Part shown: one piece after another, positions 139-11,670 of the stretch | Layout: each line of letters opens with the position of its first letter | How positions within the stretch are numbered: position 1 is the first letter of the stretch | Assembly: GCA_005799265.1 (NCBI GenBank) | Contig: SYHD01000090.1 | Coordinates: 1-45,527, forward strand | Direction of reading: 5' to 3' | Source of the DNA: Planctomycetia bacterium | GTDB taxonomy: Bacteria > Planctomycetota > Planctomycetia > Gemmatales > Gemmataceae | Length of the DNA stretch: 45,527 bases | Program-made: the position numbers and the translations under genes | The notes under the pieces: generated by a model | Database searches by the model: none | Told to the model about the DNA's origin: nothing | The model's input: the letters and a program-made list of their open reading frames with translations, nothing else

Positions 139-194
139 AGACGGGAGGGGTAGCCGTGTGGTGCGGGTGGGGTTTGCGTGGAGGCGAGGTAATA

Positions 195-272
195 TCATTG
201 GCGGGTCTGCTTGTCGGTAAGCGAGAAGCCAAGTGGGCCTTTGGGGCCGTAGGAATTGGTCGAGGTTGCCAT
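195..272 (-). CDS. possible 25-residue peptide upstream of the transposase
   Basis: A 26-codon reading frame, MATSTNSYGPKGPLGFSLTD plus five residues, starts with ATG at 272 and has a good ribosome site (TGGAGG, six bases ahead). It lies just upstream of the IS66-like gene on the same strand. I recognise no family. It could be a leader peptide, a small genuine gene, or the 5-prime stub of a gene cut by the insertion element. Confidence 0.2.
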   Translation of the reverse strand: MATSTNSYGPKGPLGFSLTDKQTRQ

Positions 273-381
273 AAAAGCCTCCAGGTCTGAAAACCCAGAG
301 GCATGGTAGATGAATGATTACGCTATCGGAAGAGAGAAACGATAGCTTACAGAAGAATGGGAATAGACTAGGCGTCAATGG

Positions 382-1191
382 CTATTTCTCAAATTTTAGG
401 TTTGGTAGAATCTTCTGAAGCGATGCCTTCCCTTCCTCGGTCACATTGGTGGATGACACCCCAAGCTTTGACAAGCTGTTAAGAGCGGAAAGCTCGGCCA
501 ACCCAACATCGGTTATTCTAGTCCCATCAAGATACAGGTGCGTTAAACTTGAGAGTTTCTTGATTTTCAGAACGCCCGCATCGGTGATGTTAGTACGCTT
601 TAAAGAGAGCATACGCAAATGCTTGAGGTTGACGAGTTGATCAAGCCCGTTGTCATCGATTTGTGTTGCATCCAGCCCGAGTGATTGCAGGTTTTCCAGT
701 GACCCGATTGTTGACAAGGCCTGATTTCCTAACGAGGTTCCGATGAAGCTTACGGTATACAAGGATCGTTGCTTCTTGAGAAGCCTGCTAGCCGATTTAT
801 CTGTGATTTGGCTGTAACTCAGGTCGAGAGTTTCTAACTCCGCCGGAATTTTCTCAAAGCGAATTATTGAGCGGTCGGTTATCTGCCTGGTTATCCCAGA
901 AATCACCATGAGATTCTTGACTCGGGAGAAAGCAGAAAAATCAATCGACTCGATGTCCTCGTCCGTGAATCCAACTAACGGCGATTTAGGCTTACCCCAT
1001 AAAATGATGTCCCGCACCTTACCATCAGGATCTTTTGTTATCTTCCCCCCTAAAGACTCTACATGTGAAGCCGCTTTTTCTTCTTCACTCTGTCCTCGGC
1101 AACAAATGACATTTACGCAAAACAAATGAAGCGAGGCGCATAAAACCACGATTCCTTTGGTCAGATCAAGGCGCAATAACTTCTGGTACAT
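382..1191 (-). CDS. exported leucine-rich-repeat protein
   Basis: A 269-residue protein of unknown partner. After a charged start (MYQKLLRLDLTKG) comes a hydrophobic segment at about residues 14-30 ending in Cys residues (VICCRG), consistent with a signal peptide or lipoprotein signal. From about residue 110 on there are six or seven leucine-rich repeats of 23-24 residues, with the T-x-I-T-D-x-G-L consensus (for example TNITDAGVLKIKKLSSLTHL), the form common in planctomycete genomes. Such solenoids usually bind protein. I chose the ATG at 1191 because AGGGAG lies seven bases upstream and the signal sequence follows at once; a longer reading to 1398 would overlap the neighbouring gene and has no such site. 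Family call is firm; role is unknown. Confidence 0.75.
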   Translation of the reverse strand: MYQKLLRLDLTKGIVVLCASLHLFCVNVICCRGQSEEEKAASHVESLGGKITKDPDGKVRDIILWGKPKSPLVGFTDEDIESIDFSAFSRVKNLMVISGITRQITDRSIIRFEKIPAELETLDLSYSQITDKSASRLLKKQRSLYTVSFIGTSLGNQALSTIGSLENLQSLGLDATQIDDNGLDQLVNLKHLRMLSLKRTNITDAGVLKIKKLSSLTHLYLDGTRITDVGLAELSALNSLSKLGVSSTNVTEEGKASLQKILPNLKFEK

Positions 1192-1342
1192 TTCGTTTCT
1201 CCCTAGCGGTCGTACAAGAACCGTAACTAGGTGAAATTCTCCACGCTTGCTAACAAGACTGCTGCTGTCCTCCACCCAGTCCTGGGTCCAGAATGGCCAG
1301 AATTGAATTCCCACGGAATTCGGTAGTTCCAAATGAATGCAC

Positions 1343-3325
1343 CTACACAAGTGGTCGTATGCTGTTCCGACGCCCGCGGAGATACATGATATGTTCATCG
1401 AGCGTACTGACCTGATTTTGCCAAAACTCGCGGATTGCCGAAATCCGACTCATTTCTGACGTTAGCAAGACGAAATCGGGGGAGGTGCTGAAATGGAAGG
1501 GGTTCGAGACAATGATAGCGGCCAAAAATGGCGCGCTGGCATTCAACAGGTTAGTGCCCTGATCAACCATTCGCTGAGCGGCGTCTGCCGCCTGGATGGC
1601 CCGATTAAGCTCACGCTGAATATATTGTTCGTCGCTCTCGAAAGGCATTTGGCGGGACGGGCGGAAAAGGGGCGGCGCAGCCTGAGCGTACACGTTGTTT
1701 GCGCCGCCGGCAGGTTGGGCCAGCATTTGCGGTTGTTGCTGTGCCCCAGGGTTGAATCCTAAGAACGGAACCACTGCGGCAACTTCCACGGGTGCAGGCG
1801 CATTGATCCTTTGGCCGAATTCTAGTGCTCCCGGCAGGCCTGCCATCCCTGTAACGTATGTTGTCCAAGCGGTCGTCTCATCCGTTGACCAGCTGGAAAA
1901 GGCGGTGGAAACGCGCGTGTTGAATTGGTCTTGCGCAGAGGCCTCTGCAGACGTTCGGTTCGACTCCAAATTGGAGAGGCCGCTAGTATAGTTATTCCAC
2001 GCAGTGGCCTCCGCGTCGATAACGGACGCCTCCGCGTTGTTGGTTGCACCAGTGTAGGTGCCCCATGCCGTTGTGTTCGCAGACGTCCAAGCTGCCCCGG
2101 CGGTCTCCGCGCTTGCACGGAACGTGGTCGCCGCTGCATCAATGGCGACGCCCCAGGTTTGTTCGTTTTGCGATTGGCTCCCTTGATAATTGGCGAGAGC
2201 AGTTGCGTACGCTTGATCCTTGGTCGCGGAAGCCAAGGCTTGCGCGTTCGTTAATGCCGCTTGCACGGACATTACCGCGATCTGCGCACTCTGGTTGGCG
2301 GTATCGGCCTGGTCCCGATCGACTTGGAACGGCGCGACTGTGGACACATACATTGCCTGGGCCGCGGCGAGCGCATCGGCGTATGTCTGCGCCGCGGCGT
2401 CAAGTTCTTCTTGCGAATTAGCCTGCGCAGCCTCGTAAGCTGCCAGTGCCAGTTGTTCGCTGGCATCGCGACTGGTAGTGGTGGAACCGATTACCGCGTT
2501 TAACGATGCCTCCGCGCTGCTCAGCCACGATTGGGTGCTTGCGGCGTCAGCCGACGCCTCATCGAGCGAGGTTTGATAGGGTGCGACGGTCAAAGCATAA
2601 GCAGCATCGGCTGCCGCCAACACATTTAGGTAGGTCAGATGCGCCGCACTCGATGCGTTCTCGAAGGCATTGTCAGCGCTAGCGGTGGCTGTGTCATAGA
2701 CAGATTGGGCCTGGGCATATGAGGAATTGAGGGCATTGTCAGCACTTTGCACGGCACCTTGATAAGCGGCGAGCGCGTTTGCAATGGCCGACACGTATGC
2801 TGCGTTGGCTTGCGCAAGTTGGCTTTGGTAATTCGCATAAAGGCCGACTGCAGTTGATTCCGCCTGGGCACGGGCGGTGATGATCGTCGTCAGCCGTTCA
2901 CTCGACGCGTCAGCGATCTGGCCCGCATATGCTTGATCGGCCTGAGCGACGGTGGTTTGGTAATCAGAGTACAATTCGCTCGGCGACTTGAAAATATCGA
3001 TGTAAATGTTGGCGGAAGCGGTTTCTTGGCCATTGGTGACGACGTAGCCCAAGGCAACCGACCCAATCATATCCATGAACGGATTGAACGTGACCGTGTT
3101 GTCCGGGTTGACTGTCGCAATTCCTTTGGGATCTTGCGTGAGGTTGACGATGGACAACGTATCGCCGTGTTGGTTGATGTCGTTTACCAGTACGTCAATG
3201 GTGATTGGCGTGTTCTTGTATGTGGAGATAGGGCCGTCGGCGTCGGCGATCAGGCCTGAAGCCGACATGAGGGTACGATCTTCCAAGAGTTCCACGATGA
3301 GCCTGGCGGTGCGGTTGTTCGACAT
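1343..3325 (-). CDS. large exported Ala-rich coiled-coil protein with planctomycete LEDR motif
   Basis: A 660-residue protein. Its N-terminus, MSNNRTARLIVELLEDRTLM, carries the R-x-x-V-E-x-L-E-D-R-x-L-M-S motif found at the start of many very large extracellular planctomycete proteins. Residues about 25-115 look like a cadherin/Ig-like domain (ITIDVLVNDINQHGDTLSIV, then TVTFNPFMDMIGSVALGYVV). Residues about 120-500 are almost entirely Ala, Gln, Ser, Asp, Tyr and Trp in short helical repeats such as A-x-A-x-A-x-x-A-Y and W-x-x-Y, predicting a long coiled coil. The tail (about 500-660) has a Pro/Gln-rich linker and then more helix. The ATG at 3325 has AGAGGG upstream. It probably acts at the cell surface, but no enzymatic motif is visible. 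It is convergent with nothing: the LRR gene follows on the same strand after 151 bases. Confidence 0.7.
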   Translation of the reverse strand: MSNNRTARLIVELLEDRTLMSASGLIADADGPISTYKNTPITIDVLVNDINQHGDTLSIVNLTQDPKGIATVNPDNTVTFNPFMDMIGSVALGYVVTNGQETASANIYIDIFKSPSELYSDYQTTVAQADQAYAGQIADASSERLTTIITARAQAESTAVGLYANYQSQLAQANAAYVSAIANALAAYQGAVQSADNALNSSYAQAQSVYDTATASADNAFENASSAAHLTYLNVLAAADAAYALTVAPYQTSLDEASADAASTQSWLSSAEASLNAVIGSTTTSRDASEQLALAAYEAAQANSQEELDAAAQTYADALAAAQAMYVSTVAPFQVDRDQADTANQSAQIAVMSVQAALTNAQALASATKDQAYATALANYQGSQSQNEQTWGVAIDAAATTFRASAETAGAAWTSANTTAWGTYTGATNNAEASVIDAEATAWNNYTSGLSNLESNRTSAEASAQDQFNTRVSTAFSSWSTDETTAWTTYVTGMAGLPGALEFGQRINAPAPVEVAAVVPFLGFNPGAQQQPQMLAQPAGGANNVYAQAAPPLFRPSRQMPFESDEQYIQRELNRAIQAADAAQRMVDQGTNLLNASAPFLAAIIVSNPFHFSTSPDFVLLTSEMSRISAIREFWQNQVSTLDEHIMYLRGRRNSIRPLV

Positions 3326-3445
3326 GATGAGCGCCCTCTGCTGAAAGTTCTGGGGAATGAGATGTGGAGGTGAAGGTAACAAAGAAATGACAATTGGCAA
3401 GAGGCGCCGAGAAACATTTTGAAATTATTTTGTCCTCATGATCGG

Positions 3446-3802
3446 TTATCCCGCTTTATCGCCCCACGGTACAGTTGGCAATCCTTGCGACTCGTGTGCC
3501 TCGTTGATGGTCACGATGCCGTACTCCAAGTTGATGTTCAGGGTTTGCTATTGCTGCTCGGGATCAATCGGCGACGGATCTTCGGATGCCAAGAAAAGCC
3601 GGCGCGTTGGGTCGTAGAACGGAATCAACTGCTCGTTCAACTTCTCGTCACGAAGCTGCAAGCGCGGGCCGATTGCTTTCGTCATGTGCTGATGCTCGGC
3701 GGTTTGCGGCTTGGCGGATTCGTGAACGCCGGTCCCAGTTCCCATTTCTGACGAAATCAGATCGGTCCCCAGAAACGTGCTTTTTCCTGACGGTTTCTTC
3801 CC
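3446..3802 (-). pseudogene. decayed C-terminal part of a phage portal-like protein
   Basis: One minus-strand frame from 3802 down to TAA at 3446-3448 reads as a protein tail interrupted by a single TAG at 3548-3550. Before the stop it reads GTDLISSEMGTGTGVHESAK, then LNEQLIPFYDPTRRLFLASE; after the stop it continues as LEYGIVTINEAHESQGLPTV and PWGD. The G-x-x-T-I-N-E-x-x-x-x-x-G-L-x-x-V-x-W-G-D ending is typical of phage portal proteins (recalled, not searched). Another TAG (3803-3805) and a TAA (3815-3817) close the frame upstream, and no start with a ribosome site is evident. This is best read as a relic, not a functional gene. It points against the direction of the capsid gene nearby. Confidence 0.5.
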
Positions 3803-3852
3803 CTAGCTCGTGGATTAGTGATTCATGGACCAAATGCCCGACAGGAGGACAA

Positions 3853-4203
3853 ATGGTTGACGAAACGCAGATTGCTGAGGACTTTCTTTCGTTCGCCAAT
3901 GCGCTCGTGCGGAAACTCAGGCCAAGACAGCACGACTGGAACCAGCAGGATGTCGAGGATGCCAGCCAGCTGCTGTTCTTGGCTGGTTGGCAGGATTACA
4001 AGGACAACGGCGACGTTGGCCTCGCCAAGAATCGGATGAAAGACCGCAGGAAGAATCTCCTGCGCGACCGCGAAGTACGCTTGGCACGCGAGCCGACGCT
4101 CCGCCTGCGTAGTCTTGGCCATCTGTTCTTCGATGCAGTTGATTCATTCAAGTCTGATTCCCGAAGCATATCTGAAATATGCTTTTGTTGCTTCCTCCGT
4201 TGA
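3853..4203 (+). CDS. small hypothetical protein, sigma-factor-like helical N-terminus
   Basis: A 116-residue protein with an excellent AGGAGG ribosome site (3843-3848) before the ATG. The first 80 residues are charged and helical: MVDETQIAEDFLSFANALVR, then DVEDASQLLFLAGW and GLAKNRMKDRRKNLLRDREV. The D-V-x-D-A-x-Q-x-L-F-L-A-G-W pattern loosely recalls region 2 of ECF-type sigma factors, but that is a resemblance only. The last 35 residues (from about LAREP) change to a composition unlike the rest and end in ICFCCFLR, so a frameshift or truncation is possible. It stands at the left of the phage-derived block. Confidence 0.45.
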   Translation: MVDETQIAEDFLSFANALVRKLRPRQHDWNQQDVEDASQLLFLAGWQDYKDNGDVGLAKNRMKDRRKNLLRDREVRLAREPTLRLRSLGHLFFDAVDSFKSDSRSISEICFCCFLR

Positions 4204-4329
4204 ACGTGAGGAATCCGCACTGGCTGACCACACGAAACATGGCGGGATTCTGGAAAAATCTTCTTCATCGGAACCCCTGATCTCAAAGCCACTTGCGGCA
4301 ACAAACAGAACAGCACCTGACAGCACGCA

Positions 4330-4362
4330 TTGACACAGCACATGCGGTATGAAATAATACCG
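4330..4362 (+). promoter_or_regulatory. sigma-70-type promoter overlapped by an operator-like palindrome
   Basis: TTGACA at 4330-4335, a 17-base spacer, and AATAAT at 4353-4358 make a near-consensus promoter about 35 bases before the gene at 4393. A perfect 6-bp inverted repeat, CGGTAT (4345-4350) and ATACCG (4357-4362), straddles the -10 box, as a repressor operator would. Confidence 0.55.
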
Positions 4363-4392
4363 TAGTCAACCGAACTGCACTTGAGGTGTCAC

Positions 4393-5097
4393 ATGAAACA
4401 GCACAAGGGAACTGGCTTCGTCAGCGACCAGGATATCGCGGCCAAAGCGTATTTCGGCCCGCCAGAAGGGGCAAAAAACTGGCTCGAAATCGGGCGTCGC
4501 CGCCTGAGTTACCAAATCGACCGCTACATCGAGGCTATCCGAGAGCGTTCCGAGGGACGTTTCATATTCCGCTTTCCGCTCGAAACGGAGAACGCCTTTC
4601 TGATGCTAAACGGGTTGGGATACCGCGCTTCGCGGAAGGAGTTTGACTACTGTGTTCGCCACGAACACATTGAGCCGCCCAAGAGCGAGGAACGCAGATT
4701 GCTGTGGTCGCGGGAGAACGTCATTGATTTCGCCATGCAGTTGGAAAGGATGCGCTATTGGCAGTACGGTCGTCACGATGAGAAGAAGACCGTCTGGGAA
4801 CTCCAACATGAAGCTGAAATCGTGGCAATCCCTTACGACGACGAATTGCAAGCTCGAATTGACGCTTCGACTGTTGACGAGTTGATCGACCTGATAGTCA
4901 ACACAGATGGCAAGCACGCACGCGAAGTGCGGGGACACATTTACGGCTATCTCCACATCAAGCGATGGGAGATGGGCCGACGGCTGAATGCCGTCGATCA
5001 GGAACTGGTCCAGCAACTCATCAACGAATCGACCAAAGAAGGCCGCAAGGCCATCGCTTTCACTCTCCGTCGTCGTCTCAACAAGGAGCAAGAATGA
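4393..5097 (+). CDS. hypothetical protein, first gene of the capsid operon
   Basis: A 234-residue soluble protein that I do not recognise. It begins MKQHKGTGFVSDQDIAAKAY and is rich in charged and aromatic residues, with no membrane segment; the C-terminal third is helical (ELVQQLINESTKEGRKAIAF). ATG 4393 was chosen over an in-frame TTG at 4381 because GAGGTG sits seven bases upstream. The stop overlaps the start of the capsid gene (ATGA at 5094-5097), so the two are translationally coupled. That position suggests a structural, assembly or regulatory role in the phage-derived element, but the sequence does not say which. Confidence 0.6.
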   Translation: MKQHKGTGFVSDQDIAAKAYFGPPEGAKNWLEIGRRRLSYQIDRYIEAIRERSEGRFIFRFPLETENAFLMLNGLGYRASRKEFDYCVRHEHIEPPKSEERRLLWSRENVIDFAMQLERMRYWQYGRHDEKKTVWELQHEAEIVAIPYDDELQARIDASTVDELIDLIVNTDGKHAREVRGHIYGYLHIKRWEMGRRLNAVDQELVQQLINESTKEGRKAIAFTLRRRLNKEQE

Positions 5098-6938
5098 CCA
5101 CAGCACTTGATGAATTGTTGCTCTCGGCTTCCGAGGTCGAGATTCAGGCCACGGCGGGCAAGCCGCCATCGGTGAACATCACGGCTTACACCGGCGGCCT
5201 TATGGTCGTGCCTGGCTGGGGGCCGGTCGTCATAGATCTTGCCGGCCTCGACGCCGGCGCGGAGCAGATTGGCATCCTGGCGGATCACGACGCCACGCTG
5301 TCCGGCATCGTCGGGCACGGCAAGGCCGTGGTCGCCGGCGATCGGTTGCTGGTGCAGGGCATGATCACGCCATCGACCGAGGCGGCACGCCAGGTGGTCG
5401 ATCTGGCGCGCGCCGGCTTTCGCTTCCAGGCATCGGTCGGCGTTGCGCCTAACGACTACGAGCGCGTGCGCCCTGGCGAACAGATCCAGGTCAACGGACG
5501 TTTCATCAAAGCGCCGACCAGCGGGTTCACCCTGGTCAAGGCATCCGTTCTCAAAGAGGTCAGCATCGTGGCGATTGGCGCCGACGCGAATACGTCCGTC
5601 GCCATCGCTGCCAACGGGAAGGAGAAGACCATGACGAAAGACGAGACCATGTCCGCCGAGCAAATCCGGGCTGCTGCCCTGGCCGAATCGGAGCGGGTCA
5701 ACGCGATCCGAGCGGCGTGCGACGGTCGGCACGGTGACATTGAATTTCTGGCCATCCGCGATGGCTGGGACGTTCAGCGCACCCGGCTTGAAGTGCTGAG
5801 GGCATCGCGTCCGGTCATTTCCGGCATCCAAGGTCGGCACGAGCCGGCGATGGGCGTCGTGCTCGAGGCCGCGATCCTGGCCCGCATGCGATGCGGTCAC
5901 CTGGCCGAGAAACACCTCGGCGCCGGCGTGGCGCAGCGGGCACACGATCTGCGCGCGACCAACCTGATCGACCTGTGCCGAACCGCCCTCGAGCTCGAAG
6001 GCAAAGACGCGCCGCACAGTCGTGAGGCCATGATCAGGGCCGCACTCAGCACCTATTCGTTGCCGGTCGCCCTGGGCAATGCAGCCAACAAGGTGTTGAT
6101 GGAAGCTTACACCGAATCGCCGGCGACCTGGCGTGCCTTCGCCAGCGTGAAGTCTGCGAATGACTTCAAGGACCAGACTGGCGTGCGGCCCAGCGACGCC
6201 GGCGACCTGACGCAACTGGCTCCTGGCGGCGAGATCAAACACGGCTCAGTCAAGGAGATGACGTATCCGTTCCGCATCGACACGTTCGCGAAGATGCTCG
6301 GCATCGACCGCCGCGACATCATCAACGACGACCTGTCGATGTTCGATGAGACGGCCCGGGCGCTCGGCCGCGCGGCCATGCGGTCACTGTCCGATCTCGT
6401 GTACCAGGTGCTGCTGGCCAACGCGGGCAGCTTCTTCTCGAGCGGCCATGCCAACTACGACACCGGCACGGCGACGGCGCTGTCGAGCACATCGCTGGGC
6501 ACCGGCATCGCCAAGATGATGGCCCAGCGCGACGACGAGAATCGCGACCTGGACATTCGCCCGCAGGTGTTACTGACGCCGCCGGAGCTTCAGCAGACGG
6601 CCAAGGAACTGTTGCTGTCCGACTACATGCAGCGGGCCAGCAACGATCAGCCGACCGGCAACGCACTCAAGAACGCCGTCACGCTGGAGGTCGAACCACG
6701 CTTGTCCAACTCGGTGCGGTTCAACGGCACCAGCACGAAGGCATGGTACTTGTTTGCAGGCGCGGCCGACACGGCACTGATCGTGGCGTTCCTCCAAGGG
6801 CAGCAGACGCCAACGGTCGAGTTCTTCGGCCTCGACGCCGAGCCAAACAAGCTGGCGGTGTCCTGGCGCGTCTACTTCGATTACGGCGCCGCCCTCGCAG
6901 ACCATCGAGCAGCCTACAAGGCCAAGGGCGAAAACTGA
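5094..6938 (+). CDS. prohead protease-major capsid protein fusion (Mu gpT-like)
   Basis: A 614-residue fusion. Residues 1 to about 180 match a phage prohead protease: a beta-rich domain with His65 in ILADHDATLSGIVGHG and Ser114 in FRFQASVGVAP, the expected catalytic His and Ser. About residues 185-245 are a charged helical stretch like a scaffold (delta) region, starting around TMTKDETMSAEQIRAAALAE. Residues about 300-614 match the Mu gpT-like major head subunit: FASVKSANDFKDQTGVRPSD, GGEIKHGSVKEMTYPF, LGIDRRDIINDDLSMFDETA, HANYDTGTATALSS. Normally the protease cleaves the scaffold and the capsid subunit then builds the shell; here all parts are one polypeptide, an arrangement known from some phages. 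ATG 5094 overlaps the previous stop. A longer upstream reading would lie inside the preceding gene. The frame is intact, with both catalytic residues present. Confidence 0.85.
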   Translation: MTTALDELLLSASEVEIQATAGKPPSVNITAYTGGLMVVPGWGPVVIDLAGLDAGAEQIGILADHDATLSGIVGHGKAVVAGDRLLVQGMITPSTEAARQVVDLARAGFRFQASVGVAPNDYERVRPGEQIQVNGRFIKAPTSGFTLVKASVLKEVSIVAIGADANTSVAIAANGKEKTMTKDETMSAEQIRAAALAESERVNAIRAACDGRHGDIEFLAIRDGWDVQRTRLEVLRASRPVISGIQGRHEPAMGVVLEAAILARMRCGHLAEKHLGAGVAQRAHDLRATNLIDLCRTALELEGKDAPHSREAMIRAALSTYSLPVALGNAANKVLMEAYTESPATWRAFASVKSANDFKDQTGVRPSDAGDLTQLAPGGEIKHGSVKEMTYPFRIDTFAKMLGIDRRDIINDDLSMFDETARALGRAAMRSLSDLVYQVLLANAGSFFSSGHANYDTGTATALSSTSLGTGIAKMMAQRDDENRDLDIRPQVLLTPPELQQTAKELLLSDYMQRASNDQPTGNALKNAVTLEVEPRLSNSVRFNGTSTKAWYLFAGAADTALIVAFLQGQQTPTVEFFGLDAEPNKLAVSWRVYFDYGAALADHRAAYKAKGEN

Positions 6939-7088
6939 TCCCAACCTGACCAACCCAGCCATCTACCGACTCTTCGACCGACCCTCTTCGCTTCCTGGCG
7001 AACGCGGCTTGCCACAAAAGGCCAGCCGTCGCCTGAACCCTCAACGGGTTCTTCCCTGCAAATGCATGAACTCAGCAGGAGAGGGATC

Positions 7089-7268
7089 ATGGCAACCAGC
7101 ACCGAGACCATCGGCCGGTTCACGTTCAGCGTGGACTTCCGCGAACCAACATCCGAATCACAAGCCCGTTTTGACCAGCGCGTCGAGACGCTGGCGACGT
7201 GGCTCGTTGCGCAATGGCGCAAGGAACAAAAGGAGGTGGATCATGGCGACCACAGCCAAGCCGGATGA
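7089..7268 (+). CDS. small hypothetical protein in the phage-derived block
   Basis: A 59-residue protein, starting MATSTETIGRFTFSVDFREP and ending in a short amphipathic helix (VETLATWLVAQWRKEQKE). AGGAGAGGG lies just upstream of the ATG. Its last 26 bases overlap the start of the ATPase gene at 7243, so they are probably co-translated. No family recognised. Confidence 0.45.
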   Translation: MATSTETIGRFTFSVDFREPTSESQARFDQRVETLATWLVAQWRKEQKEVDHGDHSQAG

Positions 7269-8889
7269 TCCGGTTCGCTTCTACGACGATGGCTCGAACC
7301 CACCCGATTCGCCGCTGCGGGTTGACGCAGAGCGTGCCTACCGCGAGGCGTTCCTCGATGCGGCCAACGAGGCAGTCCGGCTGGACGATTGCTTCGACCA
7401 GGCCGTGCTCGACCAGGCTTGGAAAGAACGCCGGCACACGCGCGATGAGGCCGAAATCAAGCCGGACGAATTCCGCGCCGATCACATCGTGGCGGCGGCA
7501 CGGGTTCGCGGCCGCGTCCAGGCGTTCGAGTTCGTGGCCCAGACGTGGGATCGTGGCGAAGATCGTGGCCTTTCCGACAAACGGATCGCCGCCGAGGTGA
7601 TCGCGCCCTGGGGCCAACGTGTTGCGTCGTGGGCCGCGAAGGAACTCGACCCGGCCAGAGTTTCGATCCCGCCACGCCCCGATGACGCATGGCCAGACGA
7701 ACCCAAGGAGCAGCTCATGACGCCAGAACCTACGCTCATCTCACGCCGGGTCAGCGAGGTGCCACGCATTGGTAACCTGGCGTTTCTGCGCACGGGTGCG
7801 AAGCCGGTGATCGCCCCCGTTGAGAAAGGGGAGCCACCGCCACCGTCACGGCTGCCAACCCTGACGCTGCGGCAATTGGTGGATCAATACCCCACCCTCC
7901 GCGAGCCGGTGATTCATGGACTGCTGCGGCAGGGTGAAACCATGAACGTGATTTCCTCCTCGAAGACCGGCAAGTCCTGGCTCGTCAGCGACCTGGCCCT
8001 TGCCGTTGCCCTCGGCCGATCTTGGCTCGACGCGTTTCCTTGCGAACCAGGGCGCGTGCTGATCATCGATAACGAATTGCACAAGGAGACGAGCGCCTTC
8101 CGCATCCCGAAAGTGATGCAGGCCCGCGGCATCGGCATGAACGAGGTCGGCGACCGCATCGTCATCTCGAACCTGCGGGGCCGGTTGAAAGACATCGTGG
8201 GCCTCGGCACCTACTTCGCGGAGATGGAGTCGGGCGAGTACAAGGTCATCATCCTCGACGCCTTTTACCGGTTCATGCCGAAGGACGCGGACGAGAACTC
8301 GAACGCCAACATGGCGCTGCTTTACAACTACCTCGATTCTTACGCCGACAAGCTTGGCTGCTCGTTCGTGCTGGTGCATCACAGCACCAAGGGAAACCAA
8401 TCCGCCAAGAGCGTGACCGATGTCGGGGCGGGTGCTGGTTCGCAATCACGGGCCACCGATACGCATCTCGTGCTGCGGGCGCATGAGCAGGAGGACGCGG
8501 TGGTCGTCGATGCCGCCGTGCGATCCTGGCCGCCGATCCTGCCGCGTTGCCTGCGCTGGGCATTCCCCGTCTGGACGCTCGATGACGCCCTCGACCCGGC
8601 CGACCTGCGGTCCGAGCGACCTCGCCGGCGTGCCAAGCCCGAGGCCGTCGAGGCCAAGCCAAGCGAGCCGACCTGGGATGCGGAGCGGTTCGCAAACGAA
8701 TTCGTCGGTGCAAACTCAGCGACGACGTTGGCCATCATCGAGGCCGCGACGGATGCCGGCCTGTCCGAACGTCGGGCCACCAAGCTGCTCAAGCAAGCCG
8801 AGCGCAAAGGGCTGATCCACCGCTGGCATTTCGGTGCTACCCATCCAGTCCAATTCGCGACGGTCGCTCAACCGAAGCCAGCTTCGTGA
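7243..8889 (+). CDS. RepA-like ATPase (AAA_25 type), probable replication helicase
   Basis: A 548-residue protein. Residues 1-150 are a hydrophilic N-terminal region. The ATPase core starts near residue 205: Walker A variant ISSSKTGKSW (residues 237-246), ELHKETSAFRIP (acidic motif after strand 2), Walker B KVIILDAFYRF with Asp339, and VLVHHSTKG (sensor-like His). This order is that of RepA/AAA_25 hexameric helicases used by plasmids and mobile elements to unwind an origin. The C-terminal 70 residues look like a winged helix (TLAIIEAATDAGLSERRATK). ATG 7243 has a perfect AGGAGG seven bases upstream. The Walker A lacks the usual first glycine. The next 227 bases contain no gene but a large hairpin, fitting an origin-linked role. 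Confidence 0.75.
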   Translation: MATTAKPDDPVRFYDDGSNPPDSPLRVDAERAYREAFLDAANEAVRLDDCFDQAVLDQAWKERRHTRDEAEIKPDEFRADHIVAAARVRGRVQAFEFVAQTWDRGEDRGLSDKRIAAEVIAPWGQRVASWAAKELDPARVSIPPRPDDAWPDEPKEQLMTPEPTLISRRVSEVPRIGNLAFLRTGAKPVIAPVEKGEPPPPSRLPTLTLRQLVDQYPTLREPVIHGLLRQGETMNVISSSKTGKSWLVSDLALAVALGRSWLDAFPCEPGRVLIIDNELHKETSAFRIPKVMQARGIGMNEVGDRIVISNLRGRLKDIVGLGTYFAEMESGEYKVIILDAFYRFMPKDADENSNANMALLYNYLDSYADKLGCSFVLVHHSTKGNQSAKSVTDVGAGAGSQSRATDTHLVLRAHEQEDAVVVDAAVRSWPPILPRCLRWAFPVWTLDDALDPADLRSERPRRRAKPEAVEAKPSEPTWDAERFANEFVGANSATTLAIIEAATDAGLSERRATKLLKQAERKGLIHRWHFGATHPVQFATVAQPKPAS

Positions 8890-8900
8890 GCGTGTGTGTC

Positions 8901-8980
8901 CTGCGCGCGCACCCCCCTTATACCCCCCGGATGCGTGCGTAAGGCACGCACCGGGGGAAGGGTATATGTGTAGCGCGCAG
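8901..8980. other. 80-bp imperfect hairpin in the gene-free gap after the ATPase
   Basis: CTGCGCGC (8901-8908) pairs with GCGCGCAG (8973-8980); inside, CCCCCGG (8924-8930) pairs with CCGGGGG (8951-8957) and TGCGTGC (8932-8938) with GCACGCA (8944-8950), leaving a 5-base loop (8939-8943). Partial pairing of TATACCC with GGGTATA links the parts. No T-run follows on either strand, so it is not a typical intrinsic terminator. It is a candidate replication origin or packaging/regulatory structure. Confidence 0.6.
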
Positions 8981-9116
8981 AACACAAGCAAGGCGATGAG
9001 TGGATGGGTAGCCGTGTGCAATAGGTACTTTGAAAAAGGCGATCCCTCCGTGCCCCCCGCGGGAACAATACCCGTCATAAGCACAGTTTATTTCTTGTAC
9101 ATGTCCGAGTTTGACC

Positions 9117-9515
9117 ATGCAGACCGAAAACGAAATGGCCGTGACCCACCTACGCGAGTGCCTTGGCTTCGCGTGCCAGGTCGTTGCCGAATCCGACGAG
9201 CCAGTGATCGTGATGCGCTACCGCAAGGGCATCGTCGCCATCGTGCCGCTCTGGGAATGGCGGTTCTTCAAGGACCTGGAGGCGGACATCCGGGCCGGGC
9301 GCAAGCGGATCATCGACGTCGAAGAATCTCCCGAAATCGAGCTGGAATTGCCTGGAACCCTCGCGGACCAGCTCGTAACTGACAGTCCTGACGCGAGGCG
9401 ACGTTCGCCTCGCCAACCAGAATACCCCGAACGGGAGAACGATGATGACGACCAAGACGACAACGAAGAAGAACGCGACTACCAAGAAGACCAAGGCGCT
9501 CAAGCTGGTGGCTGA
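9117..9515 (+). CDS. Phd/YefM-like (prevent-host-death) protein with acidic tail
   Basis: A 132-residue protein. Residues about 7-55 (LRECLGFACQVVAESDEPVI, VMRYRKGIVAIVPLWEWRFF) follow the Phd/YefM antitoxin fold: an L-R-x-x-L-x-x-x-x-x-V-x-x-x-x-E-P-V-I segment, then a basic hairpin and an x-A-x-V-P-L-x-E/D-W strand. The family binds DNA and often neutralises a toxin. The last 45 residues are very acidic (D/E-rich) and overlap the start of the next gene by 74 bases, so this end may be untranslated or a low-complexity tail. The start is uncertain: ATG 9117, ATG 9135 and TTG 9111 are all possible and none has a strong ribosome site. No toxin gene is next to it, so a regulatory role in the element is as likely as toxin control. 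Confidence 0.5.
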   Translation: MQTENEMAVTHLRECLGFACQVVAESDEPVIVMRYRKGIVAIVPLWEWRFFKDLEADIRAGRKRIIDVEESPEIELELPGTLADQLVTDSPDARRRSPRQPEYPERENDDDDQDDNEEERDYQEDQGAQAGG

Positions 9516-9741
9516 AAAGCTGAGCCAGATCGCCGCTGCCGAGCGCATCCTGGCCGACGCCGGCGAGCCGATGACTTGCAAGGCGATGGTCGAGGCGATG
9601 GCGGCGAAGGGCCTCTGGTCCTCGCCCGGCGGCAAGACGCCCGAAGCCACGCTGTACGCATCGCTGCTGCGGCAGATCAAGACCAAGGGGAAAGAGGCCC
9701 GGTTCAAGAAGGTCGCTCGCGGCCAATTCGACCTGGCGTAA
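9442..9741 (+). CDS. HARE-HTH domain protein
   Basis: A 99-residue protein. A Lys/Thr-rich N-terminus (MMTTKTTTKKNATTKKTK) is followed by a helical hairpin and the domain AAAERILADAGEPMTCKAMV, EAMAAKGLWSSPGGKTPEAT, LYASLLRQIKTKGKEARFKK. This is the HB1/ASXL/restriction-endonuclease HTH (HARE-HTH) winged-helix pattern, known in eukaryotic chromatin proteins, in bacterial RNA polymerase delta, and in restriction-modification proteins. The basic N-terminus suggests DNA binding. ATG 9442 (or 9445) follows GGGAG. It sits between the Phd-like gene and the recombinase and may regulate or assist the element. Confidence 0.65.
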   Translation: MMTTKTTTKKNATTKKTKALKLVAEKLSQIAAAERILADAGEPMTCKAMVEAMAAKGLWSSPGGKTPEATLYASLLRQIKTKGKEARFKKVARGQFDLA

Positions 9742-9805
9742 TCGAACCGGATCAGATGCGCCTCGCGCCATCGCGGGGCGTGTCGCATTCAAGGAGACCA
9801 CACCC

Positions 9806-11641
9806 ATGACCAAGAAACTCATTCCGGCGGTCGGCTACGCTCGGCGCAGCACCGACATGCAAGAACGATCCATTCCCGACCAGCAGGCGTTCGTGGAGCG
9901 GTGGGCTGCGCAGCATGGCTACGCCGTCAATCGCTGGTTCATCGACGACGCCATCTCCGGCACCAGCACGAAGGGCCGCAACGCCTTCGAGCAGCTGATC
10001 GCAACCGCTGAGAACGGCCGCGACTTCGAGTCCATCCTCTGCTACGACATCTCTCGCTTCTCGCGCGGCGGCACGAACGAAACGGGCTACTACCTGCACC
10101 GTCTCAACCTGGCCGGCGTCAACGTGCAGTTCACGGCCGACGCCATTCCCGAAGGCGACGAGGGCGAGCTGATCCAGGGCGTCAAGTCCTGGCAGGCCAG
10201 GCAATACTCGATCAAGCTGGCCCGCGACACCATCCGTGGCCAGATCAGCAACATCCGCGAACGCAAGAGCGCACCGGGTGGCCAACCGCCCTACGGCTAC
10301 GACAAGCAACATCTCACGCCCGACGGCAAGGTGCTGCGAACACTGCGGTGGATGCCGGACAACACCAAGCTGGAGATCGCGCCGGACGGCACTATCGTCC
10401 GCGCCATCGCCAGCGACGTTTTCGTGGCCAAGGCCAAGGGGGACATTGTTCGCCTCGTTCCCAGCACGCCGGATCGCGTGCGAGCGATTCAGCGCATGTT
10501 CGACCTCTGTGGACAAGGCTACGGTTACCGCTCCATCGCCGTCCGCATGAACGAGGAGAGCATTCCGAGCATGTTCGGCCGGCACTGGAACATGTCGAAC
10601 ATCGCCCAGATGCTTCGCAATCCGGTCTACTGCGGTTCATTGGTTTACAACAAGCGAACCGAAGGGACGCTTTTCGGCATGAGCGTGGATGGCACGCTCC
10701 GGCCCAAGAAAGGCAAACGCGGCAGCTTCAAGAACGGGAATGAGGATTGGATTATCATCTCCGGCGTTCACGAGCCGCTGATTTCCCAAGAGACATTCGA
10801 CGCCGCCCAGGCCGCGATGGCGAAGCGACGGTACGCGGGCGGCAAGGCCCGCTCGGTGCGGCGAACGCTGGTTTCGACCTTGTTGGCCTGCAAACGCTGC
10901 GGGTCGAGCTTTACCACCGTCCGCGACACCCGCCGCAAGCCTGAGTTTGGCCCGCCGTACCGCCATTATACCTGCGCCGGCTACCATCGGTACGGCAAGA
11001 AGGTCTGCGGCCTGGTACGCATTCCCGGCCAGGCCCTCGATGCCTTCGTGCTGAAGTTGATCGGCCAGGAGCTCCAGGGCGACGCCAAGACGCGGAAGCA
11101 GGCCATCGACGCGTTCGTCAATGCGATGGCGAAACCGGCGACGGCGGCGAACGCTCCTGACACCCGGCGCGAGATTGAGCAACTGAACCGTCGGATCAAG
11201 ACAACCTTGGCCTTGATCGCCGACCCGACTTTCGACGGCTTGGAGGATATCCATGCCTTGCTGACGGATTTGAAGCGCAAGCGCGATTCACTGGTCAGCA
11301 AACAGCGGGCCGCAGAGTTGGCCGAGCAGCCCGCGTTTACCCAGCAGCAACTCCGCGAATGGGTCACGGAGCAATTCAACAAGTTGGATCGCCTGGCCAA
11401 CAAGGAGCAAGTCGATCTGGCAGACCGGCAACTGGTCGAGGCGTTTGTTCAGCGGATCGAGATTGAACCCGATTCCCAGACCGGCGTGGTGATTCTTCAT
11501 CCCGACTTGGAGTCAGTCCTCGCGTCCACACGGGTACTCGGAGGGGAGGATACCCAAACAGGCGGTTCGAGCAAAGATGTACTTCATACGGCTAAAGAGT
11601 TACGAATAGCGAGAATTATAGCCAGAATCGAACGGGGTTAA
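9806..11641 (+). CDS. large serine recombinase (site-specific integrase)
   Basis: A 611-residue recombinase. The resolvase catalytic domain begins AVGYARRSTDMQERSIPDQQ with the nucleophile Ser15, and contains YDISRFSRGG and WQARQYSIKLARDTIRGQIS. A Recombinase domain follows (ERKSAPGGQPPYGYD, then GYGYRSIAVRMNEESIPS, WNMSNIAQMLRNPVYCGSLV). A zinc ribbon has LACKRCGSSF and YTCAGYHRYGKKVCG. The C-terminal region (about 455-540) is a coiled coil (EIEQLNRRIKTTLALI), as in phage and transposon integrases that join attP and attB without divalent metal. AAGGAG lies upstream of ATG 9806. The frame looks intact. It is the last gene of the mobile block and presumably integrates and excises it. Confidence 0.92.
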   Translation: MTKKLIPAVGYARRSTDMQERSIPDQQAFVERWAAQHGYAVNRWFIDDAISGTSTKGRNAFEQLIATAENGRDFESILCYDISRFSRGGTNETGYYLHRLNLAGVNVQFTADAIPEGDEGELIQGVKSWQARQYSIKLARDTIRGQISNIRERKSAPGGQPPYGYDKQHLTPDGKVLRTLRWMPDNTKLEIAPDGTIVRAIASDVFVAKAKGDIVRLVPSTPDRVRAIQRMFDLCGQGYGYRSIAVRMNEESIPSMFGRHWNMSNIAQMLRNPVYCGSLVYNKRTEGTLFGMSVDGTLRPKKGKRGSFKNGNEDWIIISGVHEPLISQETFDAAQAAMAKRRYAGGKARSVRRTLVSTLLACKRCGSSFTTVRDTRRKPEFGPPYRHYTCAGYHRYGKKVCGLVRIPGQALDAFVLKLIGQELQGDAKTRKQAIDAFVNAMAKPATAANAPDTRREIEQLNRRIKTTLALIADPTFDGLEDIHALLTDLKRKRDSLVSKQRAAELAEQPAFTQQQLREWVTEQFNKLDRLANKEQVDLADRQLVEAFVQRIEIEPDSQTGVVILHPDLESVLASTRVLGGEDTQTGGSSKDVLHTAKELRIARIIARIERG

Positions 11642-11642
11642 T

Positions 11643-11670
11643 GGCGTTTTATTGACATTTTAATAACGCC
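11643..11670. other. AT-rich inverted repeat after the recombinase
   Basis: GGCGTT (11643-11648) and AACGCC (11665-11670) are inverted around an AT-rich middle that also pairs partly (ATT/AAT). It overlaps the end of the recombinase gene. It could be a weak terminator or part of the attachment region. Confidence 0.35.

Follow-up and report, generated by a model that had tools for sequence, protein, structure and literature searches.

How an element that encodes a capsid protein without the machinery to fill and finish a virion can be mobile is the question raised by the first 12 kb of contig SYHD01000090.1 (assembly GCA_005799265.1), from a Planctomycetia bacterium of the family Gemmataceae. 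The whole stretch analyzed (45,527 nucleotides, referred to here as the window) belongs to a 6.5-Mb assembly of 372 contigs. A preliminary description had reported a compact element at 3803-11670 that joins a protease-capsid fusion, a RepA-like ATPase and a large serine recombinase on one strand, and family matches confirm all three on the + strand. The element is very probably a phage satellite that makes its own shell, borrows the terminase, portal and tail of a helper phage and has relatives embedded in helper prophages. It would represent a new satellite lineage, working like a capsid-carrying, helper-embeddable phage-inducible chromosomal island (PICI) and built of different parts. The evidence is comparative throughout.

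The limits of the element follow from its empty site. When the flanks at 1-139 and 11546-11604 are joined, the resulting sequence is found uninterrupted in five further contigs of the same genome (99-100% identity over 141-142 nucleotides spanning the junction), and a 60-mer spanning the junction is matched exactly in all five. The mobile unit is therefore a complete integrated element of 11.4 kb at 140-11545 (+), including two host-like cargo genes at its left. The limits first reported are too short, and the precise empty sites that the preliminary description proposed to seek do exist. The left attachment site (attL, 140-190, +) consists of a 2-bp GA core at 140-141 followed by the left arm TAGCCGTGTGGTGCGGGTGGGGTTTGCGTGG. 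This arm (TAGCCGTGTGG...), located at 151 and far to the left of the first-reported start, is also carried by two relatives inserted in terminase genes (L188 and L185; L numbers denote related loci and G numbers genomes). The right site (attR, 11515-11547, +) comprises the right arm TCCACACGGGTACTCGGAGGG and then the GA core at 11546-11547. The right arm (CCACACGG...GGAGGGGA), which lies at about 11546 in the window, is common to the right ends of L112, L138 and L188, where a terminase gene comes next. The predicted circle junction of the window element reads ...CTCGGAGGGGACGGGAGGGGTAGCC....

The insertion site is the end of a multicopy IS66-type insertion sequence of the host, which also accounts for the contig beginning at position 1. 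A terminal piece of the interrupted copy lies at 11546-11603, the other part being 1-139; this piece is common to all five empty copies, which diverge beyond it. A related full copy (L279) matches the Pfam family DDE_Tnp_IS66 (1e-42). A simple search for direct or inverted repeats gave nothing usable since the junction repeat is the 2-bp core only. An empty site was also sought through the right-hand neighbor, an esterase gene, upstream of which the relatives differ; that search was uninformative because the true right end falls within the recombinase open reading frame (ORF). Three elements have both ends precisely placed (L038, L188 and the window element), and they measure 10.4-11.4 kb.

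The gene content of the element is that of a satellite. The intact capsid gene (P0003, 5094-6938, +) encodes a fusion of prohead protease and major capsid protein (Phage_capsid_4, 4e-41; NF045541, the family of such fusions, 5e-86; phrog_4523, 9e-77). The presumed replication protein, or Rep (P0004, 7243-8889, +), is a RepA-like ATPase (AAA_25, 6e-30; phrog_2597, 1e-42), and the integrase (P0007, 9806-11641, +) is a large serine recombinase with three recombinase domains (Resolvase and Recombinase in Pfam; phrog_95, 1e-90). As the preliminary description had observed, terminase, portal and tail genes are missing: none of these families was found among the element's proteins by Pfam, PHROGs and NCBI-type family matches. 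The element has its own integrase and replication gene and lacks virion-completing genes, as is general for satellites, and the terminase, portal and tail module that a prophage would have of its own are absent from it. Packaging and tail Pfam families were likewise absent from 76 ORFs of the window and ten relatives, which were chosen as loci without further phage genes and may include incomplete elements. Of the 59 families matched in the PHROGs scan of these ORFs, the 25 commonest were covered, which leaves room for a single odd match. Hidden Markov models of packaging genes were built from prophages of the same phylum and supplemented by the Pfam and PHROGs scans.

The capsid gene connects the element to a widespread lineage. 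A capsid search gave matches in 49 of 199 genomes of relatives and five further copies within the window genome. Clustering of the 20-kb neighborhoods separated two kinds of loci: complete prophages with terminase, portal, capsid, tape measure and tail genes, and "lone capsid" loci, in which the capsid gene is accompanied by those for replication and integration and immediately preceded by a small gene designated c13. All five other copies in the window genome are in complete prophages with terminase and portal, and the window capsid is about 40% identical to them. After public genome and viral collections, which are rich in draft metagenome assemblies, had been scanned, the lone set comprised 82 loci, nearly all from Planctomycetota (two records titled Chloroflexota and one titled Verrucomicrobiota may be binning errors). 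The recurrent order in these loci is c13, capsid, Rep, HARE and serine recombinase, with a tyrosine integrase in place of the latter in some. The preliminary description had suggested looking for the same order in planctomycete genomes; it recurs in other species and is thus not due to chance.

The lone capsids share a common ancestry. A clade of the 13 lone capsids then known was recovered in a first tree (support 100/98). In a larger tree, 73 of 77 lone capsids fall on one side of a branch (Shimodaira-Hasegawa-like approximate likelihood ratio test, SH-aLRT, 96) and all 34 complete-prophage capsids lie outside. The window capsid groups in a clade of ten with L186 and eight prophage-embedded loci. 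The ratio of nonsynonymous to synonymous substitutions (dN/dS) is 0.06-0.30 in 15 capsid pairs, which indicates purifying selection, and the protease His, Ser and Glu are retained in 70-72 of 77 lone capsids. One supported clade, these ratios and the kept protease residues together indicate that the lone capsids are an old functional lineage and not a product of decay. The linker between protease and shell domains, which in protease-capsid fusions is expected to serve as a scaffold, has a median length of 166 residues in lone capsids and 199 in prophage capsids (about 33 shorter), while the lengths of both domains are kept. The lone capsid of L245 clusters with the prophage side of the tree. 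A second, small group of lone capsids (L055, L067 and L074) has a separate origin within the prophage capsid tree. Two loci of a single genome (L040 and L041, G110) share the capsid and its upstream gene in identical form, but their replication genes differ, as do their tyrosine integrases, a pattern that points to modular exchange around a fixed capsid module.

Relatives of the window element are found inside complete prophages, which are probably their helpers. The same block lies within a prophage in 11 related loci and is co-oriented with the helper genes in every one. Both junctions are on one contig in three of these only, the other eight giving one side or no base-level junction; in the three, computed excision restores the terminase or portal exactly. 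The portal gene is interrupted in G170, the closest whole-genome relative, in a prophage with terminase, capsid, tape measure and tail genes, and joining at a common TTCAA core re-creates ...LNMPFNVAAGNSSGYNY..., which matches intact portals. In L188 the split falls within the Walker B motif of the terminase (VVLD|DPQT), at a GAC core, and in L184 the terminase is split further on at a 12-bp core; both joined frames match intact terminases. L138 and L185 each preserve one half, split at the same terminase residue (292). A prophage DNA-methyltransferase gene is interrupted in L181, L182, L183 and L199, the L220 element lies at the end of a tape-measure gene (tail region) and that of L215 just upstream of the terminase. 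The viral contigs L112 and L114 start inside a recombinase homologous to that of the window and continue into terminase and portal. Insertion into late genes of a helper prophage is thus a feature of the relatives, the window copy itself being located in an IS66 element. The preliminary description had held that a block continuous with tail and terminase genes in related genomes would speak against a satellite. Such continuity is literally present in several relatives, but in them the block has been inserted into those genes and divides them, a finding in favor of the satellite reading. Together with the precise ends and the absence of packaging and tail genes, the position of the closest relatives within terminase, portal and methyltransferase genes of complete prophages strongly supports that reading.

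The recombinase is encoded across the attachment site that the element uses. In the window its identity is 77% to the recombinase of L112 and 74% to that of L138, both elements being inserted in terminase genes. The last ~31 codons of its ORF, those past 11545, are IS66 DNA read through the junction, and the native tail is encoded at the opposite end of the element, so that the attL DNA doubles as code for the C-terminal tail of the recombinase in the circular form. Read through the circle, the tails are ...RVVRVGFAWRRG... in the window, ...RVERVGFAWKWG... in L188 and ...RVVTVPFAWRWG... in L184, and the left end of L185 gives ...RVERVGFAWVRG.... In the integrated state the native tail is lost and the ORF continues in frame into the terminase (L188 and L184) or into IS66 (window). 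Conservation of the tail at the protein level suggests that it matters functionally, although it could alternatively reflect a constraint on the DNA, which also forms the attachment arm.

These observations suggest the following life cycle. The serine recombinase would insert the satellite into a complete prophage, within a gene for packaging or another late function (terminase, portal, methyltransferase or tape-measure region), or into a host IS66 element. Once a helper phage is active, the satellite would excise, replicate by means of its RepA-like protein and build a shell, predicted to be small, from its own protease-capsid fusion; it would then leave the cell through the terminase, portal and tails of the helper. 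Excision of an embedded copy would also rebuild the interrupted helper gene, which would tie helper packaging to satellite excision. Possible helpers of the window copy are the five complete prophages of its own genome whose capsids are related. Several points weigh against this scheme. The capsid genes of Gram-negative PICIs are reported to be unnecessary for transfer (PMC10111431), and by analogy the satellite shell may not package the element. The window copy may be partly impaired since its sigma gene is truncated. The loci were sampled through the capsid, so that relatives without one would escape and part of the constancy of the capsid in this family comes from that choice, although clade structure and selection are unaffected. 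Finally, the capsid-only design is not universal, as L059 and L074 have a tape-measure gene.

A possible, though clearly less probable, alternative is that the same satellite uses its capsid as a weapon. Expressed late, the protein would co-assemble with or poison helper proheads, or shift their size, so that the helper is restrained and the satellite is packaged in particles derived from it. The relatedness of the HK97-type capsids, some 40% identical to those of prophages in the same genome, the shorter scaffold-like linker beside full-length protease and shell domains, and the dispensability of PICI capsid genes are in keeping with such interference. The full protease and shell fold is, however, strongly conserved across a very deep clade, a better fit to a working shell. 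It is rather unlikely that the elements are passengers in phage genomes, carried in the virion of the helper and excising, like an intron at the DNA level, only to repair the interrupted gene while the capsid serves something else. Repeated insertion into essential packaging genes, exact restoration and a recombinase that reads in frame into the interrupted terminase would all suit a passenger, but neither the strong conservation of the capsid-protease gene nor chromosomal copies such as that of the window would be explained.

The remaining alternatives, both raised in the preliminary description, have been largely refuted. Mu-like or HK97-like prophages could have lost their packaging and tail genes by deletion again and again, with capsid, replication and integrase genes remaining, and the homology with capsids of complete prophages and the truncated sigma gene agree with such reduction. 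It is nevertheless very improbable given a single capsid clade whose gene order is the same in many lineages, a pattern at odds with numerous independent losses, and given purifying selection on the capsid, precise attachment and empty sites and relatives inserted within complete prophages. A host-domesticated, encapsulin-like compartment beside unrelated integration genes would account for an HK97-type shell protein without packaging genes but is scarcely credible, as the capsid gene is part of a mobile unit with an integrase and a replication gene, has kept its maturation protease and belongs to elements located in prophages and insertion sequences.

The hallmark of the satellite is c13 (P0002, 4393-5097, +), which is directly upstream of the capsid gene and was missed by the preliminary description. 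Of the 82 lone loci, 61 contain it, and several of the others are truncated at contig ends; among 78 prophage loci with a terminase it is present in 2, both belonging to the window genome. In these two and in no other complete prophage, a c13 homologue (L045, 3862-4548; L047, 2908-3621) lies between methyltransferase and terminase; it may have been captured from a satellite or be a counter-measure. AlphaFold predicts a confident winged helix-turn-helix (HTH) core (predicted local distance difference test, pLDDT, 90-97). Fold matches are weak: the best in the PDB is MerR/GlnR-like (E 0.75, probability 0.91) and the best viral match is an excisionase. The protein could be a packaging selector (small-terminase-like) or a late regulator; the weak fold match and its near absence from complete prophages count against an actual small terminase. 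Small NrdR/Ogr-like zinc-ribbon proteins occur upstream of c13 and the capsid in L050, L051, L059, L065, L074 and L230; Ogr-type proteins activate late genes in P2/P4.

A strong bulged hairpin (8898-8985, +; DNA fold z = -4.7) directly follows the Rep gene and is a candidate origin or terminator. A bulged C-rich/G-rich hairpin after Rep occurs in nine relatives (L138, L182, L183, L184, L190, L197, L203, L226 and L227), 1.5-2.6 kb past the capsid, with the same architecture and in several cases different paired stem bases. The architecture was found in none of 121 other loci (1.69 Mb), with 0.85 expected in shuffles. Of two small DNA-binding-like proteins described previously, one is indeed a HARE-HTH protein (P0006, 9442-9741, +; Pfam, 3e-13), while the other (P0005, 9117-9515, +) has an acidic tail and no known domain; homologues of the latter are present in the L038 and L138 elements. 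HARE-HTH homologues are present in complete prophages too, making this protein a possible point of cross-talk between satellite and prophages. Cluster c8, a conserved large ORF that lies opposite HARE in prophages, was discarded as a shadow ORF. A further small protein is encoded between the capsid and Rep genes (P0008, 7089-7268, +; an ORF without family match).

All genes from the sigma-like fragment to the recombinase are on the + strand. The fragment (P0001, 3853-4203, +) is the N-terminal part of a sigma-70/extracytoplasmic function (ECF)-like protein that has lost region 4; it aligns to residues 1-83 of a relative in L038 (12075-12584), which keeps that region (Sigma70_r4_2, 9e-8). Two genes within the left limit are on the opposite strand and look like cargo: one encodes a leucine-rich-repeat protein (382-1398, -; LRR_4, 1e-9) and the other a large protein with a bacterial Ig/cadherin-like domain and a repetitive Ala-rich region (1343-3313, -; Big_9, 9e-11; Cadherin_5, 1e-9). 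A subtilase, which also looks like cargo, occupies the equivalent position in the G170 element. An Abi_alpha (abortive infection) domain (6e-17) in one of the 76 scanned ORFs, probably L056 13074-14090, is possible anti-phage cargo. Among the neighbors of lone capsids are tape-measure or tape-measure-like genes in L059 (10647-13109; TMP_3, 4e-16), L074 (6.8 kb), L243 (7.0 kb) and L057 (11364-12881; tape-measure-like by appearance, without family match), and relatives with such genes may also set tail length.

The element can be compared with several known satellites. Like P4, which needs a helper for tails, it is about 11 kb long and has its own replication gene. P4 uses the capsid protein of its helper and only a size-setting scaffold, whereas the window element itself encodes a shell protein. 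Capsid-forming PICIs (cf-PICIs), the type proposed in the preliminary description, resemble it in having their own capsid protein and no tails. Since cf-PICIs encode every protein for their own capsids and packaging (PMC12409344) and terminase and portal are missing here, the element is not a cf-PICI. The closest functional parallels would be the capsid-carrying Gram-negative PICIs and the helper-embedded PICIs (HE-PICIs), the latter being the nearest published mechanism. With the former (21 of 29 reference PICIs have a capsid gene; PMC10111431) it shares a small, one-directional layout with integrase, replication gene and capsid gene. The AlpA regulator, which in Gram-negative PICIs is adjacent to the integrase, gave no Pfam match among the main proteins of the element; c13 weakly matches an AlpA structure yet adjoins the capsid gene. 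A further difference is that the lone capsid represents an old lineage private to these elements and comes with a maturation protease of its own. HE-PICIs were described in E. coli by Tommasini, Mageeney and Williams (2023; PMC10111431) as satellites embedded in a helper prophage, a late gene of the helper being delayed for as long as the satellite has not excised. The likeness extends to a satellite of about 11 kb within helper late genes (terminase and capsid among them), co-oriented with them, whose excision restores the gene, and the founding HE-PICI has its own capsid gene. The integrases that mobilize HE-PICIs, however, all belong to one clade, and HE-PICIs possess the AlpA and Bro-network genes of PICIs, whereas the elements described here have what its Resolvase and Recombinase domains mark as a large serine recombinase (tyrosine in sister elements), a protease-fused capsid, a RepA-like replication gene and hosts in the Planctomycetota.

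Helper embedding has so far been described only for HE-PICIs, a different satellite family. A search of the open literature, which left subscription papers and preprints outside its scope, returned no paper that pairs "phage satellite" with "planctomycet" or with "serine integrase". Taken as a whole, the evidence gives roughly even odds to a broader picture. A phylum-wide lineage of planctomycete satellites would have kept a private, self-maturing shell protein over very deep divergence and independently evolved insertion into helper packaging genes. With a recombinase gene that spans the attachment site, integration would swap the native tail for the in-frame rear half of the helper terminase and excision would restore both genes at once, a possible built-in switch of the life cycle. 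The capsid-only design makes it testable whether a satellite can supply only the shell and borrow the motor, and the pairs of satellite and helper shell proteins would be useful for asking what determines capsid size. If the satellite reading is true, helper embedding and capsid carriage arose separately from the known PICIs, and such a separate origin would point to a general rule that satellites gain from a location within helper packaging genes.

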